Source of the DNA: Mycobacterium sp. UM_WGJ
GTDB taxonomy: Bacteria > Actinomycetota > Actinomycetes > Mycobacteriales > Mycobacteriaceae
Length of the DNA: 64,000 nt
NCBI RefSeq assembly: GCF_000455125.1
Contig: NZ_AUWR01000008.1
Coordinates: 396,802 to 460,801, forward strand
Direction of reading: 5' to 3'
Below the pieces are notes generated by a model, which was not told where the DNA came from, made no database searches, and saw nothing but the letters and a program-made list of their open reading frames with translations. Below, one piece after another: positions 8,647 through 37,612 of this stretch. Position 1 is the stretch's first letter; the number at the start of each line of letters is the position of its first letter. Made by a program: the position numbers and the translations under genes.

Positions 8647-9114
8647 CTAGGCCGGAGAGACGCCGGCGCTGATCACCTGCACCGCGCTGACCAGACCGTC
8701 GATCAGGTTGCCGTCGCGGAACGCCGCAGCCGCCGCGGCCACACCCTGCGGTGCGGCAACCGGGGCGATCCGGCCGGCCACGCCCGCGCCGTAGACCACC
8801 TCGATGGCCTTCTGGTCCGGCGAGACCGCGATCAAGACGGCGTCGTTGGGGGTGGGCACCTTCGCCAAGATCTCGCGGGCCCGCGCGGCGGTGTCAGCAC
8901 CCAGGTCGCCGATGTAGGTGGCGAACCGGGACTGGGTGGCGCGCGACGCGTAGGTCAGGGCGTCATCGAGAGCCACCAGTTCCTTGACCGGGAACGGGTA
9001 GTGCAACGACGCCTCGCCGGGCTCGGTAACCCCGGAAACCCGGCCGCTGTTGGTGACCACAAAGCCGTACGGCAGGTCAGCCGGATCGATCGTTACGACT
9101 TCACCAGTTGCCAC
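8647..9114 (-). CDS. DUF5130 protein (Rv2468c-like)
   Basis: A protein of about 155 residues whose core ([27 protein letters not shown]) matches the Rv2468c/DUF5130 family, distantly related to TPM-domain proteins. Function is unknown. GTG at 9114 is chosen because GGTGGAG lies about 5 nt upstream and because it overlaps the end of the small upstream gene by only 14 bp; the next in-frame ATG (9165) would overlap 65 bp. The 14-bp overlap points to translational coupling with the 74-residue membrane protein. Confidence 0.85.
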
Positions 9115-9325
9115 TGGCTCCACCCCCCACGCTGAACTCGGAATTGCCGTGGCCGTGTCCGCCAACGGCCTCGTCGGTCGCCGCCCAGAGGATCGGCGGG
9201 TGTGTCCACCGCTCCGACATCTGATAGATGGCCGCGCGCGGCCCCTTCTGCGTCAGGGTCCGGGCGGCCAGCAGCGCGAACATTGCCGCCGGGATGCCAA
9301 TGAAGATGCCGAGGGTTTCCAACAT
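9101..9325 (-). CDS. Small single-pass membrane protein upstream of the DUF5130 gene
   Basis: A 74-residue protein with one N-terminal hydrophobic helix (about residues 2-21, [16 protein letters not shown]) and a soluble tail with an HGHGN stretch. The ATG at 9325 is the likely start; a GTG two codons upstream (9331) is possible. It overlaps the DUF5130 gene by 14 bp, so the two probably form one unit. Small membrane proteins in this position occur in other mycobacteria. The function is unknown. Confidence 0.7.
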
Positions 9326-9535
9326 GCTCACGCCGTAGACGGTATCCCACCGCTCAACCAGCGGTGCGGGAACCCGGCCCGACGGTGCGCCGCGCCGGGG
9401 CGGACGCCCGAACGTCGGCCCGCCGGGACTGGCCAGCACCTGCTGAACGGGCACCGATTATGGTGGCGCCATACCCTGCCGCAGACGTTGCTCGAGGTCC
9501 AGGGGCTGCGCCGTCGTTCCGGAAAGGCGATAGTC

Positions 9536-10630
9536 ATGGTTCTTGCTGCCGCGGTCCAATTGGAGGCGGTACTCGGCGACGTTCCGGCCAACCTCGCCGC
9601 CTGTGAACGGCTGGCCGACGAGGCGGGCCGCGCCGGCGCCAGGATCATCGCCCTGCCGGAGTTCTTCACCACCGGTATCGGATTCGAGCCGGCGCTGGCT
9701 TCGGCGGCCTTACCGCCCGGCGGCGCGGCCACCGAACTGCTCACCGCGCTGGCTCGCCGGCACCGCGCGCTGGTCGGTGGGTCCTTCCTGTGTCGCGATA
9801 CCGACGGCCACGTCCGCAACGCCTATCTGCTCGCAGGTCCCGACGGCGGTTCAGCGAGGCCCGACGAAGGAGAGCCGAAGCTGGGACCGCCGCTTGAACC
9901 GGGCGGTTCAGCGAGGCCCGACGAAGGAGAGCCGAAGCTGGGACCGCCGCATGGACCCGGCGGTTCAGCGAGGCCCGACGAAGGAGAGCCGAAGCTGGGA
10001 CCGCCGCTTGGACCCGGCGTGGTGGGCCGCCACGACAAGGACCTGCCCACCATGTGGGAGAACGCGTTCTACACCACCGGCGACGACGACGGGGTGATCG
10101 CGGCAGGCGAATACACGGTCGGGGCGGCGGTGTGCTGGGAGTTGATGCGCACTCAGACGGTGCGCCGGCTGCGCGGCCGGGTGGACCTGGTGATGACCGG
10201 CTCGGGCTGGTGGTCGATTCCGCGCTGGTCGCCCCACGCCCTGTTCGACCGTCTCGAACGCACCAACGCCGGCACCGCGCGCCAGGCTGCGGCGTCGTTC
10301 GCCCAGTACGTCGGCGCACCGGTGGTGCATGCCGCCCACGCCGGGGCATTGACCTGCGCGATGCCGTGGCTGCCGCTTCGCTACCACGGCCATTTCGAAG
10401 GCGCCACGCTGATCGCCGACGCCGACGGCACCGTCATCGCCGAACGGCGCGCCGATCAAGGCGAAGGGATCGTCCTCGCAGAGATCACGCCCGGTCGGCG
10501 GCCGGCTCGACTCGCGCCGCCCGCCGGCTTCTGGCTGCACCGCCGCGGGACGCTGCCCACCGCGGTGTGGCACTACCAACGCTGGCACGGGCGACGCTGG
10601 TACCGGCACAACGTCGCACAGAACGTCTGA
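9536..10630 (+). CDS. Nitrilase-superfamily C-N hydrolase with in-frame 19-residue repeats
   Basis: A 364-residue carbon-nitrogen hydrolase. The Glu-Lys-Cys triad is visible: Glu42 in LPEFF, Lys168 in RHDKDLP and Cys200 in AAVCWEL. The amide or nitrile substrate cannot be predicted. The ATG at 9536 follows GGAAAGG. Residues about 104-161 are three tandem copies of a 19-residue unit (GGSARPDEGEPKLGPP plus three), encoded by a 57-bp DNA repeat also found outside genes at 32719-32822. It interrupts the domain between the NAYLLAGPDG strand and the lysine loop, a surface loop in this fold, so activity may survive. The next gene starts 12 bp downstream. Confidence 0.88.
   Translation: MVLAAAVQLEAVLGDVPANLAACERLADEAGRAGARIIALPEFFTTGIGFEPALASAALPPGGAATELLTALARRHRALVGGSFLCRDTDGHVRNAYLLAGPDGGSARPDEGEPKLGPPLEPGGSARPDEGEPKLGPPHGPGGSARPDEGEPKLGPPLGPGVVGRHDKDLPTMWENAFYTTGDDDGVIAAGEYTVGAAVCWELMRTQTVRRLRGRVDLVMTGSGWWSIPRWSPHALFDRLERTNAGTARQAAASFAQYVGAPVVHAAHAGALTCAMPWLPLRYHGHFEGATLIADADGTVIAERRADQGEGIVLAEITPGRRPARLAPPAGFWLHRRGTLPTAVWHYQRWHGRRWYRHNVAQNV
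9845..10015. repeat. Three tandem copies of a 57-bp hairpin repeat inside a coding sequence
   Basis: Units start at 9845, 9902 and 9959, an exact 57-bp (19-codon) period, nearly identical to each other. Each unit contains a hairpin: GGCGGTTCAGC at the left pairs with GCTGGGACCGCC at the right, apart from one bulge and one wobble. The inner segment includes CGACGAAGGAGAGCCGAAG. The unit keeps the reading frame of the nitrilase gene. Related copies, with TTCG in place of CCCG and GGAACC in place of GGGACC, lie at 32719-32822 with the same 57-bp spacing. Confidence 0.95.
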
Positions 10631-29444: not shown

Positions 29445-31075
29445 TGCTCCCCCTTCGGGGCCGGCGGCTTCTTGGCCGGGGCTTTCTTGGCCGCAGCCTT
29501 CTTGGCCGGCGCCTTCTTGGCGGCAACCTTTTTAGCCGGGGTCTTCTTGGCGGCAGCCTTTTTAGCGGGCGCCTTCTTGGCCGCCGGCTTGGGTGACCAG
29601 GCCGGCAACTCGTCGACCGGCCAGTCGGCCAGGGTGTCCAGGTACAGCTGCCGGACCTCCGCGATCCGCTCGGGCAGCGTGTCGACCGTCCAATCCTCGA
29701 CCGAGATCGCCGGGAACACCGCGACGTCGACGGTGCCCGGGTGAGCGCTCATCGAGTCGCGGGCCGCGACCACCTCGGCGTTGCGGATGATCACCGGCAC
29801 GATCGGTATCCCGGCCGCCATTGCGAGCCGGAAGGGTCCCTTCTTGAACGGGCCCACCCCGGTGGTGTCGACCCGAGTGCCTTCCGGCGCGATCACCACC
29901 GACAAGCCGCGCTTGGCACGTTCTTCGACCTGTTGTAGCGACTCCACGGCCGCTGCCGCGTCGTCCCGGTCGATGAACACCATCTCGGTCAGCTTCCCCA
30001 GCGGACCGGCGATCGGGTCTCGCTCCAGTTCGCGCTTGCCGACGCTGATCCAGTTGTCACGCACCAGCGAGGCTGTGATCACCGGATCGACCTGGTTGCG
30101 GTGGTTGAAGATGAACACCGCCGGCCGGGTTGCGGTGAGATTCTCTTTGCCGATCACGTTGAGCCGCACGCCATTCAAACCAAGCAGCACCTGCGGGAAC
30201 AGCGCGGTAAAGAAGTTGACCCCGCGACGGCGGCTGCCACTCAGTAGGCCCAGCCCGATCGCGCCAGCGCCCACCGGGACGATCGAGCTGAGGCCGGCCA
30301 GGTTCCGCAGTTGGCCGACGACTCCGCTGCCGCGGCTGCTGAACTGCAGGATCGGCCAGCCGCGCTTGCGGGCGACCGAGGCCATCTTGCCCTCGGGGTT
30401 CGTCGGTCGCGGATTGCCGACCAGATGCATCAGCGCAACGTCTTCGTCCCCGTCGGCGTAGAAGTAACTGTCCTGCAGGTCGATGTCGTGTTCGGCGGCG
30501 AACTTCTGCACCGCGGCGGCCTTGCCCGGCCCCCACAGGATCGGTTCGACCACCTCGCCGGTGAGCACCCCGTCCTCGTCGGTGACGAAGGCGTTGGTGA
30601 GCGTGTTGGCAATACCCAGGAAACGGGCCACCGGTTCGACCTGGATGGTCAGCGCCGAAGAACTCAGCACGACGGTGTGCCCACGAGCCTGGTGGGCTCG
30701 CACCACCGCACGCATTTCGGGGTAGATGCGCTTGGCGATCTTCTGCACGAACAGCCGCTCGCCGATCTCATCGAGGTCACTGATCGAACGGCCACGCAGT
30801 GCCGACGACGCGGTCTTGATGAGCTCCTCGAACTCGATGCGGCCGAGCTGATGGTTGAGCCCGGCCTGGATCATGCCGAATAGCTCCCCCAGCCCCATGT
30901 CGCGGCTCCGGAATCGCTCCCGGGTGAGGATCACGGCGGTGAAGCCGGCCACCAGGGTGCCGTCAAGGTCGAAGAACGCGCCGATCTTGGGCCCTGGCGG
31001 GCTCGCCGCGATCTCAGCCACCGATCCGGGCAGCCGCATGTCGCGCGGCTGCCGAGGCTTCGAGTCGTCGGTCAT
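29441..31075 (-). CDS. plsC: Bifunctional HAD hydrolase / lysophosphatidate acyltransferase with Lys-rich tail
   Basis: A 544-residue fusion. Residues about 30-260 form a SerB-like HAD phosphatase (FDLDGT near 36-41). Residues about 310-500 form a PlsC acyltransferase with FNHRNQVD (H-x4-D) and PEGTR. It acylates lysophosphatidate; the HAD domain may dephosphorylate a lipid or glycerol intermediate. The last 45 or so residues are repeats of AAKKAPAKK type, like histone-H1-type tails of mycobacterial HupB, which could bind nucleic acid or acidic lipid. The ATGA overlap with the WS/DGAT gene and GTGA with plsB2 show a tight operon. Matches Rv2483c. Confidence 0.94.
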
Positions 31076-32520: not shown

Positions 32521-32898
32521 GCCGAGCTCCCCACACCGCAGCCCTACCCCGCCCTGCTCGGCACACCGAGGCTGTCACCACACACCACTCCTGATTCACA
32601 GAGGTCACGCCGACCATTCAACGCTAGTTGTTTGCCCCCGGCGACGGGTGTCGATTGGCCCAGATCCGGATGCCTGCCGACAAATCGAAATACTGTGTTG
32701 GCCGGTTGAATTGGTAACGGCGGTTCAGCGAGGTTCGACGAAGGAGAGCCGAAGCTGGAACCGCCACATGAGCCCAGCGGTTCAGCGAGGTTCGACGAAG
32801 GAGAGCCGAAGCTGGAACCGCGGCCTCGACCCCGCGGGTGCGGCTTTACTCGGTCGCCGGGGATCCACCCCTACCAGCGGATAAACTGGATCCGCATT
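32521..32898. other. Intergenic region with the 57-bp repeat
   Basis: This gap between the WS/DGAT start and tRNA-Arg must hold the promoter of the lipid operon (on the minus strand) and of tRNA-Arg. Two 57-bp repeat units occupy 32719-32822. TAAACT at 32882-32887 could be the tRNA-Arg -10 box, with no convincing -35. No credible coding sequence was seen; short open frames merely read through the repeats. Confidence 0.6.
32719..32822. repeat. Two intergenic copies of the 57-bp hairpin repeat
   Basis: The units share the motif GCGGTTCAGCGAGG, then CGACGAAGGAGAGCCGAAG, then GCTGGAACCGC, starting at 32720 and 32777: again exactly 57 bp apart. The arms GCGGTTC-AGC and GCTGGAACCGC pair except for one bulged base. 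The inner TTCG and CGAA can also pair. Compared with the copies in the nitrilase gene, the arms differ (GGAACC against GGGACC), so the two loci have diverged from each other. They lie 77 bp before tRNA-Arg. Confidence 0.93.
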
Positions 32899-32972
32899 GC
32901 CTCCGTAGCTCAGGTGGATAGAGCACATGACTTCTAATCTTGTGGTCGCAGGTTCGAGTCCTGCCGGGGGCG
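32899..32972 (+). tRNA. tRNA-Arg (anticodon TCT)
   Basis: A 74-nt cloverleaf: acceptor GCCTCCG/CGGGGGC (one G-T pair), anticodon loop CTTCTAA (TCT, reading AGA) and T-arm AGGTTCGAGTCCT. The discriminator is G. CCA is not encoded. Confidence 0.96.
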
Positions 32973-35469: not shown

Positions 35470-36518
35470 GGCGCCTCCAACACACGCTGAACGCAGTCCA
35501 GCAGCCGGTCGGGGCCGGGCAGCCACAGTCGTTCCAGCCGCGCCGGTGGATAGGGGGTGTCGAATCCGGTGGCGCGCAACACCGGTGCCTCCAGCTCGTA
35601 GAACAGCTCCTCGGAGATGCGCGCGGCCAGTTCGGCGCCATAGCCGAGGTTGCGGGACCCCTCGTGCAACACCACGCATCGCCCGGTGCGCCGCACTGAC
35701 GCAGCGACGGTGTCGAAGTCGAGCGGGACCAGCGAGCGCAGATCGACCACCTCCAGGCTCCACCCGTGGTTCTGCGCGCCGATCTCGGCCGCGGACAGTG
35801 CGGTGGCCACCCCGCCGCCGTAGGTGAGCACCGTGACGTCGGTACCGGCGCGGCGTACGGCAGCACACCCGATCCCCGGCGCCGGGTGTTCGGTATCGAC
35901 GGCACCCCGGGCCCAGTACCGTCGCTTGGGTTCGAGGAACATCACCGGGTCGGGGGCGGCGATCGAGTGCCGCAGTAGCCAGTAAGCGTCCGAGGGGTCG
36001 GCGGGCACCACGACCTTGAGTCCGGCGGTGTGCGCCCAATAGGTTTCGGTGGATTCCGAATGATGCTCGGCCGCACCGATTCCGCCGAACGAGGGGATGC
36101 GCACGGTGACCGGCATCGACACCGCGCCGCGAGTTCGGGTGCGGTACTTGGCCAAGTGGCTGACCACCTGGTCCAATGCGGGGTAGCTGAATCCGTCGAA
36201 CTGGATCTCCGGAACCGGTACGAAGCCGCGCATCGCCAGCCCTATAGCGATGCCGATCACCGCCGATTCGGCCAGTGGCGTATCGAAACAGCGTTGCTCA
36301 CCGAACGTTTCAGCCAGGCCTTCGGTCACCCGGAACACCCCGCCCTGCACGCCGACGTCGGTGCCGAACACCAGGACCTTGGCATCGGCGTCCATCGCAT
36401 CGCGCAACGCCCGGTTGAGCGCCGCGACCATGGTCAGCTCTTCACTTTTTCGGGCGGTGGATCCGGTGGCCGCGGTGGGAGTCGCTGCGCGGGTGGGTGG
36501 TTCGAGAATCTGGGTCAT
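35466..36518 (-). CDS. bkdB: Branched-chain alpha-keto acid dehydrogenase E1 beta
   Basis: Beta subunit of the thiamine-diphosphate-dependent E1 that decarboxylates the keto acids of leucine, isoleucine and valine. The 350-residue protein has the transketolase-like pyrimidine-binding fold ([32 protein letters not shown]) and a C-terminal transketolase domain. Start ATG 36518 shares its A with the bkdA stop (TGATG). Corresponds to Rv2496c. Confidence 0.95.
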
Positions 36519-37612
36519 CAGCGCCCCCTGCCCAATTCGGCGTGCAGCGCGGCGCGCTGCTGCTGCAGATCCGGGGTGATCTCGGCGTAGACGGCGGTGA
36601 ACACCTCGTCGATGTCGGCATCGGGGGCCGCGACCGTGGCGTCTCGCAGCTCGCTGCGTACGCGCTGGGCCCGAGCGTCGACTCGGTCTTCCAGGCGTTG
36701 CGACCACACGCCGATATTGCGCAGGTAGCTGCGGTAGCGCGGGATCGGGTCGAGTGCCGTCCACCGGTCGACTTCGGCGTTGCTGCGGTAGCGGGTCGGA
36801 TCATCGGAGGTGGTGTGCGGGCCGAGCCGGTAGGTGACGGCCTCGATCAGGCTCGGGCCACCGCCGTGTCGCGCCCGCTCGGCAGCTTCGGCCATCACCG
36901 CATAGCAGGCCAGCGGGTCATTGCCGTCCACCCGGATGCCGGGCATGCCGTAGCCGATCGCCTTGTGCGCCAGCGAGACAGCGGCGGTCTGCTTGCTCAG
37001 CGGCACCGAGATGGCCCATTGATTGTTCTGCACATAGAACACGCACGGGGCGGTGTACACCGCGGCGAAGTTGAGTGCCTCGTGTACGTCGCCCTCGCTG
37101 GTGGCGCCGTCGCCGGTGAAGGCGACGGTGACGGAGTCCTCGGCCAGGCGTTGGGCGGCCATCGCCGCGCCCACCGCGTGCAGCGTCTGGGTGCCGATCG
37201 GAATCGAGATCGGCGCACAGTTCTTCTCGGTGAACTCCAGCCCGCCGTTCCACGTTCCACGCCAGGCGGATGCGAGGTGCCACGGCGGGATGCCCCGGGT
37301 GACGAAGACGCCCAGCTCGCGGTATTGCGGGAACAGCCAGTCGGTTTTGCGCAGACACGCGGCGGCGCCCACTTGGGCGGCCTCCTGGCCGCGGCATGAC
37401 GCGTACAACGCCAGCTCGCCCTGGCGTTGCAGGTTGACCAGTTCGGTGTCGAGCTCGCGGGTGAGCACCATCAGCTCGTAGAGCCAACAGAGGGTCTCTT
37501 CGGGCAGGTCCCGGCTATAGCGATTCTCGGCGGTGGGCGCCCCGTCCGGCCCGATCAGCTGCACAGGCTCCAGAGCGACCTGAGGACCGGTAATGCCTGG
37601 CAGCTGGCCCAT
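36518..37612 (-). CDS. bkdA: Branched-chain alpha-keto acid dehydrogenase E1 alpha
   Basis: Thiamine-diphosphate-binding subunit of E1. The 364 residues include the cofactor motif beginning GDGATSEG (about 169-176) and ending at the Asn of QNNQW near residue 200. The phosphorylation-loop-like RLGPHTTSDDP follows near residue 268. First gene of bkdABC (Rv2497c-Rv2495c). The 90 bp upstream hold its promoter; no BkaR-type operator was seen there. Confidence 0.95.
   Translation of the reverse strand: MGQLPGITGPQVALEPVQLIGPDGAPTAENRYSRDLPEETLCWLYELMVLTRELDTELVNLQRQGELALYASCRGQEAAQVGAAACLRKTDWLFPQYRELGVFVTRGIPPWHLASAWRGTWNGGLEFTEKNCAPISIPIGTQTLHAVGAAMAAQRLAEDSVTVAFTGDGATSEGDVHEALNFAAVYTAPCVFYVQNNQWAISVPLSKQTAAVSLAHKAIGYGMPGIRVDGNDPLACYAVMAEAAERARHGGGPSLIEAVTYRLGPHTTSDDPTRYRSNAEVDRWTALDPIPRYRSYLRNIGVWSQRLEDRVDARAQRVRSELRDATVAAPDADIDEVFTAVYAEITPDLQQQRAALHAELGRGR

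Follow-up and report, generated by a model that had tools for sequence, protein, structure and literature searches.

The three 57-bp repeats in a nitrilase-family gene belong to a repeat family that is dispersed over the genome. We consider the unit very probably a palindromic interspersed repeat of the Mycolicibacter clade without an enzyme of its own, which would enter a site as a founder, grow there locally and be filtered by selection, with the nitrilase array being a tolerated insertion. The evidence is that we observed dispersal of the unit, empty nitrilase sites, copy-number variation, in-frame residence, homogeneity within arrays and covariation in the hairpin. Below, the window is the whole stretch of 64,000 nucleotides that was analysed; positions elsewhere are given as contig and coordinate, with contig handles such as C8 referring to the window's genome unless another genome is named.

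As the original prediction stated, the nitrilase-family gene contains three near-identical 57-bp units (Table 1), arranged head to tail and in frame within ORF 9050-10630. TRF reports the array at 9844-10019 (period 57, 3.1 copies, 95% matches and 0% indels), and the 47-nt hairpin part is identical across all three units. The GGCG directly 3' of unit 3 is native, judging by comparison with empty sites. Because the orthologues begin at ATG 9536, we took it as the start, which likely gives the protein of 364 aa. The insert corresponds to added residues 104-160. E42, K168 (which we take to be the catalytic lysine) and C200 are invariant in an alignment of 24 sequences, and the 57 extra residues are therefore placed between the Glu and Lys segments with the catalytic residues intact, both as proposed; the insert ends 8 residues before K168. 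Compared with solved nitrilases, the insertion point falls within the 'VVGPRG-FIGKYRK' stretch, immediately ahead of the catalytic Lys. In an AlphaFold2 model computed from the 24-row alignment (mean pLDDT 81.5, pTM 0.83), pLDDT is < 50 at residues 108-152 and residues 101-161 have no secondary structure, with the insert flanked by strands 93-100 and 162-167. The insert is predicted to be a disordered loop, the remainder of the fold being confident, and in this one modelled host it appears solvent-exposed and compatible with the fold. We also note a separate 15/30-bp tandem repeat at 29459-29584 of the window (CTTCTTGGCCGGCGC...), which on the minus strand presumably encodes a histone-like protein's Lys/Ala-rich tail.

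Table 1. Features of the nitrilase locus, the intergenic array of the window and the 55-nt subfamily.
Feature	Position	Strand	Evidence
C-N hydrolase (nitrilase superfamily) gene, array host, intact, 364 aa (likely start)	9536..10630	+	ORF, orthologue alignment, Pfam PF00795 CN_hydrolase E 8e-20, AlphaFold2 model
Repeat unit 1, 57 bp, residues GGSARPDEGEPKLGPPLEP	9845..9901	+	model R1 82.2 bits
Repeat unit 2, 57 bp, residues GGSARPDEGEPKLGPPHGP	9902..9958	+	model R1 84.3 bits
Repeat unit 3, 57 bp, residues GGSARPDEGEPKLGPPLGP	9959..10015	+	model R1 82.8 bits
Peptide LGPPLEPGGSAR, example sequence spanning the nitrilase insert			
Related unit, intergenic, upstream of tRNA	32719..32775	+	3 mismatches; model R1 83.0 bits
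Second unit of intergenic array	32776..32832	+	model R1 76.1 bits
tRNA adjoining intergenic array	32899..32972	+	Rfam RF00005
Arrays of the 55-nt subfamily	window's genome C1:37182, C1:40673, C27:59701, C72:19976, C92:21134; genome G022 C1:2945343-2945565		

The consensus of 56 units is GGCGGTTCAGCGAGGCTCGACGnAGGAGAGsCGAAGCTGGrACCGCCGCATGAACCC. Each 57-nt unit consists of an 11-bp imperfect hairpin (GGCGGTTCAGC...GCTGGrACCGCC) and a 10-nt tail (GCATGAACCC), and the predicted inverted-repeat arms (GGCGGTTCAGC / GCTGGGACCGCC) are indeed found in each unit. For pair counting and for the covariance model we used 38 of 55 distinct units, leaving out same-array near-duplicates and units out of register. 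In these 38 distinct copies 96.5% of the hairpin cells pair, as compared to 25-48% in slid controls. Four pairs are altered on both sides, a value not reached in any of 500 shuffles, and both-side changes affect 7 cells against a shuffled mean of 0.9, while the +1 slid control also shows 8 cells in 3 pairs changed on both sides. Position 41 is A or G opposite U7, such that pair 7-41 alternates between U-G and U-A, and this pairing holds on the unit strand alone, counting G-U. In RNA folding against shuffles the unit strand reaches z -3.1 (consensus) and -2.5 (window unit), and the reverse complement -0.1; DNA parameters yield a weak advantage over shuffles (z -1.7 and -1.8; reverse -0.8). The unit is palindromic with a stable hairpin by these measures, and since the G-U pairing and the RNA fold are seen on the unit strand and absent on the other, the structure appears to be constrained in RNA of the unit's orientation. 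Rfam gave no match at E <= 1 for the unit and no known RNA family over the array. We also observed a subfamily of 55-nt units, a length that is not a multiple of three, with, for example, GGTTAGC in place of GGTTCAGC (Table 1); four of its five single arrays in the window's genome are between genes, and C1:40673 lies antisense in a gene.

The related copies reported from a distant non-coding gap of the window are confirmed as a two-unit array, located between the tRNA of Table 1 and an ORF that we assume to be acyltransferase-like. A search for the 47-nt part with up to 3 mismatches finds its first unit as the fourth match in the window (mean 0.00 in 100 window shuffles). The same site has one unit in Mycolicibacter sp. 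MYC123 and none in MYC340 and MYC098. We then have, for the window's genome (4,473,234 bp, 116 contigs), 42 places by BLAST, 60 places by a 28-nt core pattern (0 in the reversed control), and 103 units in 77 arrays by the covariance model at E <= 0.01, including 57 single, 15 double, 4 triple and 1 quadruple arrays. Several contigs end in or beside units, namely C1 (97479-97511), C12 (128000-128027 of 128028), C54 (74060-74087 of 74088), C28 (29978-30034 of 30042) and C78 (1-45); the repeat seems to break the assembly there, and the copy counts are therefore lower bounds.

Searching related species, we found the unit in all 12 named Mycolicibacter genomes (M. heraklionensis, M. algericus, two of M. 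senuensis, two of M. sinensis, M. kumamotonensis, M. arupensis, MYC123, MYC017, MYC340 and MYC098), with 32-120 units each. None of eight other mycobacteria (M. kyorinense, M. gordonae, M. asiaticum, M. intermedium, M. frederiksbergense, M. elephantis, M. houstonense and Mycobacteroides LB1) holds it at E <= 0.001. Under stricter filters, and with the window's genome included, matches were seen in 3 of the 41 genomes sampled from the genus and in 6 of the 249 sampled from the order (1 genus out of 68), one of the six having a single weak match. Around the nitrilase gene, the pieces that align with M. heraklionensis show about 91-94% identity, which suggests that the window's genome is probably that of a Mycolicibacter. 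Carriage by phages or plasmids was rejected: no phage matched the unit, no viral contig had an exact pattern match, and one plasmid, of Nocardiopsis eucommiae (CP074403.1), gave a weak 71% array match (L377 1001-1151) in an unannotated stretch, one of three such places there.

We were able to align both flanks of 41 distinct orthologous nitrilase loci (from 79), and the unit is found in none of them; 38 are shorter by exactly 171 bp and two keep 3 bp more. The nitrilase gene of MYC340 is empty. M. heraklionensis, the nearest, has a 15-bp in-frame remnant (GGCGGTTCAGGGGCC) at the exact insertion point, which consists of the first 10 nt of the unit and a tail-like end. The simplest reading of this scar is that the insertion predates the split from M. 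heraklionensis and was lost there by in-frame deletion. Empty sites are also seen for single-unit insertions in other genes, at C8:51438 (empty in MYC340), C8:188745 and C8:161292 (MYC098), and C8:307140 (both). Where a site is occupied in several species, the number of units differs: C6:15083 has 1 unit in the window's genome, 3 in genome G022, 3 in M. sinensis, 2 in MYC017 and 2 in M. heraklionensis; C45:5782 has 1, 3 and 1; and the coding sites in KshA, EctA and SRAP have 1/1/2, 1/2 and 1/2 units, respectively. The family therefore combines tandem units, many dispersed sites and variable copy number. We note that M. sinensis E1572 carries two in-frame units in the gene neighbouring the nitrilase, presumably glycosidase-like, a position that is empty in the window. 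Many sites are common to several species (12 of the 20 best-scoring arrays of M. heraklionensis coincide with a sampled one), so the pattern gives no proof of recent movement.

Units are 97.7% identical within arrays (17 pairs from 11 arrays) and 86.5% identical between arrays (283 pairs). This homogeneity, together with the copy-number variation at shared sites, indicates that arrays grow locally from a founder. For the three nitrilase copies, a single insertion that was later duplicated locally is the best explanation; three independent insertions are disfavoured, as the arrays are homogeneous and the three window units have T17C in common, a change found in 0 of 53 others.

To place arrays relative to genes, we used our own codon-model caller on 131 arrays, comprising 71 of the 77 arrays of the window's genome (6 were dropped for missing sequence, a short flank or a length under 50), the best-scoring 20 of MYC340 and the best-scoring 40 of G022. 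There are 85 arrays between genes and 46 inside them (36 sense and 10 antisense), with weak coding support on one side in 3 sense and 3 antisense cases; in the window's genome alone, 51 of 71 are between genes. Coding sequence makes up 54,102 of the 64,000 nucleotides of the window (about 85%), so genes are avoided. Among the intergenic arrays, 16 of 85 closely follow an upstream sense gene: they start 2-6 nt past its called stop, and in 7 cases the distance is exactly 3 nt (e.g. C8:63567, C22:21988, C2:79313 and C54:7430 are arrays of this kind).

Base 1 of the unit is at codon position 1 in 35 of the 36 sense arrays. After clustering by flank similarity, 27 distinct sense sites remain, 26 of them in one frame; the exception (L351, a nucleoside hydrolase) uses the second open frame. 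The antisense arrays represent 10 sites, 8 of which are in one phase. Among the 20 best-scoring arrays of M. heraklionensis, all four sense arrays (two of them new sites) are in the dominant frame, 2 are antisense and 14 are between genes. An earlier and cruder test of coding context (7 sense sites, all in one phase, and 5 antisense) is superseded by these counts. The frame bias has P = 4e-7 under equal use of two frames. In window genes, however, C|GGCG, which resembles the insertion point, is in the dominant phase in 63% of cases, and against 0.70 (open frames only) the P-value is about 8e-4; target phase therefore explains much of the bias, and selection a part. A stop-free frame had been put forward as a special trait of the unit, a point that does not survive: four of the six consensus frames are open, and open frames are common in such DNA. 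Its length, said to let it invade genes as a multiple of three, has a visible effect that is weak: in the window's genome 19 of 55 arrays of exact 57-bp multiples are in genes, as compared to 1 of 16 others (Fisher 0.029), a test of 57-bp multiples in which 5 of the 16 are themselves multiples of three. Third-position changes per array are 0.37 in coding and 0.71 in intergenic arrays (35 coding and 68 intergenic arrays). With no third-position excess in coding copies, the unit is not seemingly conserved for its peptide, and purifying selection at the peptide level is unsupported.

Pfam and NCBIfam were used to name the families of 20 sense-host fragments out of the 36 sense arrays, and they show the unit in frame in protein genes that are otherwise conserved. 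MurD (TIGR01087), EctA (TIGR02406) and MptA (TIGR03459) score above cut-off; two more assignments, a FadD5-like ligase and a PcrA-like helicase, do not reach the cut-off of the specific model. Further hosts by Pfam include a KshA-type oxygenase, SRAP, UvrD-type helicases (two), SDRs (three), an AraC-type regulator, a polyketide-cyclase-like protein, a thioredoxin-fold protein, an enoyl-CoA hydratase, a nucleoside hydrolase, a patatin and an M13 peptidase; one fragment has only a weak family match. Eight sense sites, including murD, mptA-like and fadD-like ones, are retained in two or three of three genomes. A single murD match of the window's genome is above cut-off. Its two parts (C8:35171-36130 and 36194-36634) are separated by nothing but the unit, and with the unit they form one frame of 535 aa without a stop; two other murD matches are below cut-off. 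MurD is essential in bacteria, and since the sole match above cut-off carries the unit, the product with the insert is presumably functional.

These observations bear out the prediction of a small element to the extent that it is dispersed, amplifies and resides in frame in many apparently intact genes; they do not extend to mobility itself, be it by mechanism, by enzyme or by differences between strains. In the explanation that we favour, a single unit would enter at a CC|GG(CG)-like point and the array could then reach 2-5 units as its head-to-tail copies slip or recombine unequally; units could also be lost again by in-frame deletion. Selection would remove insertions that break genes, leaving most arrays between genes, and the sense arrays within genes would use essentially one frame, encoding a hydrophilic Gly/Pro/charged linker that the host protein may tolerate. 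The flanks of 71 arrays prefer CCC | GGCG, partly owing to partial units, and native empty sites agree with it.

An ordinary protein tandem repeat, i.e., a low-complexity linker arisen in place, would suit the tandem, in-frame arrangement in a predicted loop; it has next to no chance of being correct, and we rejected it on the genomic copies and empty sites. Such a repeat should be present in all orthologues and have no other genomic copies, and what we found is 41 of 41 aligned sites free of the unit, 103 units in the genome (76 other arrays, mostly between genes) and a covarying hairpin. That the insert is beneficial, a 19-aa module of variable number that tunes enzymes, is quite improbable: the different copy numbers in KshA, EctA and SRAP and the eight retained sense sites speak for it, but coding copies have no enrichment of synonymous changes, arrays are depleted from genes (46 of 131 inside, against 85% coding), and the nitrilase insert was apparently deleted in M. 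heraklionensis. As to how the unit spreads, a MITE-like element moved by a resident IS transposase with matching ends is a possibility that we rate as rather doubtful. It is in line with 11-nt imperfect terminal inverted repeats, high copy number, presence or absence between species, and a similarity of tail and left flank in an array's own pair above that in shuffled pairs (4.25 of 10 against a mean of 3.79, 0 of 2000 shuffles as high; 71 arrays), a match that comes partly from partial units. Against it, there is no consistent target duplication (none evident at the nitrilase site and no clear one overall), and in G022 we found no 5' and 3' unit halves split by up to 5 kb, the mark of a parent element, which led us to dismiss such a parent there. 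Mobilisation by RAYT was likewise rejected, as Y1_Tnp (PF01797) is absent from all 11 unit-bearing genomes searched, with 9 matches in one rapid grower as positive control. We regard it as unlikely that the unit is copied independently of any transposase, through its hairpin or a single strand, with the dominant frame shaped into a protein-tolerable 19-residue linker that colonises essential enzymes and makes 19-residue protein VNTRs; if true, the essential hosts would be MurD, a PcrA/UvrD-type helicase and an MptA-like mannosyltransferase.

We also asked whether the unit could be a member of MIRU, as a Mycolicibacter-specific subfamily with a new hairpin arm, and consider this unlikely. The habit is similar (units of about 50-77 bp, tandem and dispersed, with an ATGA-containing junction), and a comparable core, CGACGA.G.AGAG.CGAAGC, is found in both. 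The core sequence that we searched, taken to be that of MIRU, has 7-41 hits in each of seven other mycobacteria. Six genomes with the unit have 1-5 hits each and five further genomes have 0, and the four of the seven core-rich mycobacteria that were searched with the unit model have no unit. The alignment score of 30, however, was reached by 220 of 5000 dinucleotide shuffles and by 100 of 19855 random window segments, and with the covariance model over 11 MIRU loci, no MIRU unit exceeds 9.8 bits (E 1.9), whereas 12 other stretches score higher. The core is thus suggestive, and homology is not significant by alignment or by model. Two single loci may be mentioned: an exact copy of the MIRU core at C23:6220-6242 of the window's genome, where both kinds of repeats coexist, and a MIRU-like core with 3 mismatches in Mycolicibacter sp. 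MYC098 (L265 1501, G053:C1:615786), just upstream of a start that we take to be regX3-like, a classical MIRU locus. The searched core is printed as Primer 3 in PMC10117815.

The repeat provides natural alleles of the same enzyme genes that are filled, empty, scarred or variable in copy number, so that the question of whether such inserts are neutral, harmful or useful can be tested directly, and the arrays could possibly serve as VNTR typing markers in the Mycobacterium terrae complex. Our literature search found the family described in no title or abstract opening among the matches listed, and a search by sequence letters found no paper printing the unit cores, most subscription papers being outside the reach of both. 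The earlier idea was largely right, and we regard the unit as a new family among the in-frame palindromic elements, set apart by its tandem amplification within coding genes.

Among known systems, REPs are short dispersed palindromes that are extragenic by definition; the palindrome is what the unit has in common with REP/RAYT systems, whereas the RAYT domain Y1_Tnp is missing from the 11 genomes mentioned above. With MIRUs, whose copy number also varies, the unit shares short tandem dispersed mycobacterial units, an ATGA-containing junction and a similar core of ~20 nt. MIRUs are found mainly at gene junctions, where the ATGA overlap joins the flanking ORFs. The consensus tail of our unit carries ATGA too, but most arrays do not link two ORFs, about a third of the sampled arrays lie inside genes, and the homology is not significant. 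ERIC/RU-1, YPAL/RU-2 and Correia elements (reviewed in PMC2229807) are small non-autonomous hairpin repeats of ~100-200 bp; some of their frames are open, they occur as in-frame fusions to genes, and several have target-site duplications; compared with these ORF-fusing MITEs, the unit is shorter (57 nt) and has no clear target-site duplication.

The closest analogue, by its features, appears to be the Rickettsia palindromic element (RPE). RPEs were reportedly described by Ogata et al. in 2000. According to PMC2229807 and PMC3767692, they are dispersed palindromic repeats that occupy intergenic sites as well as in-frame positions within conserved protein genes, those of aminoacyl-tRNA synthetases among them, with solvent-exposed inserts and with one tested host enzyme being active; their length in Rickettsia is 105-146 bp (PMC2229807). 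The unit differs from RPEs in being 57 nt long, GC-rich, found in Mycolicibacter and arranged in tandem arrays with copy-number variation, and it would represent a far-removed, GC-rich mycobacterial counterpart to the in-frame palindromic repeats of Rickettsia.
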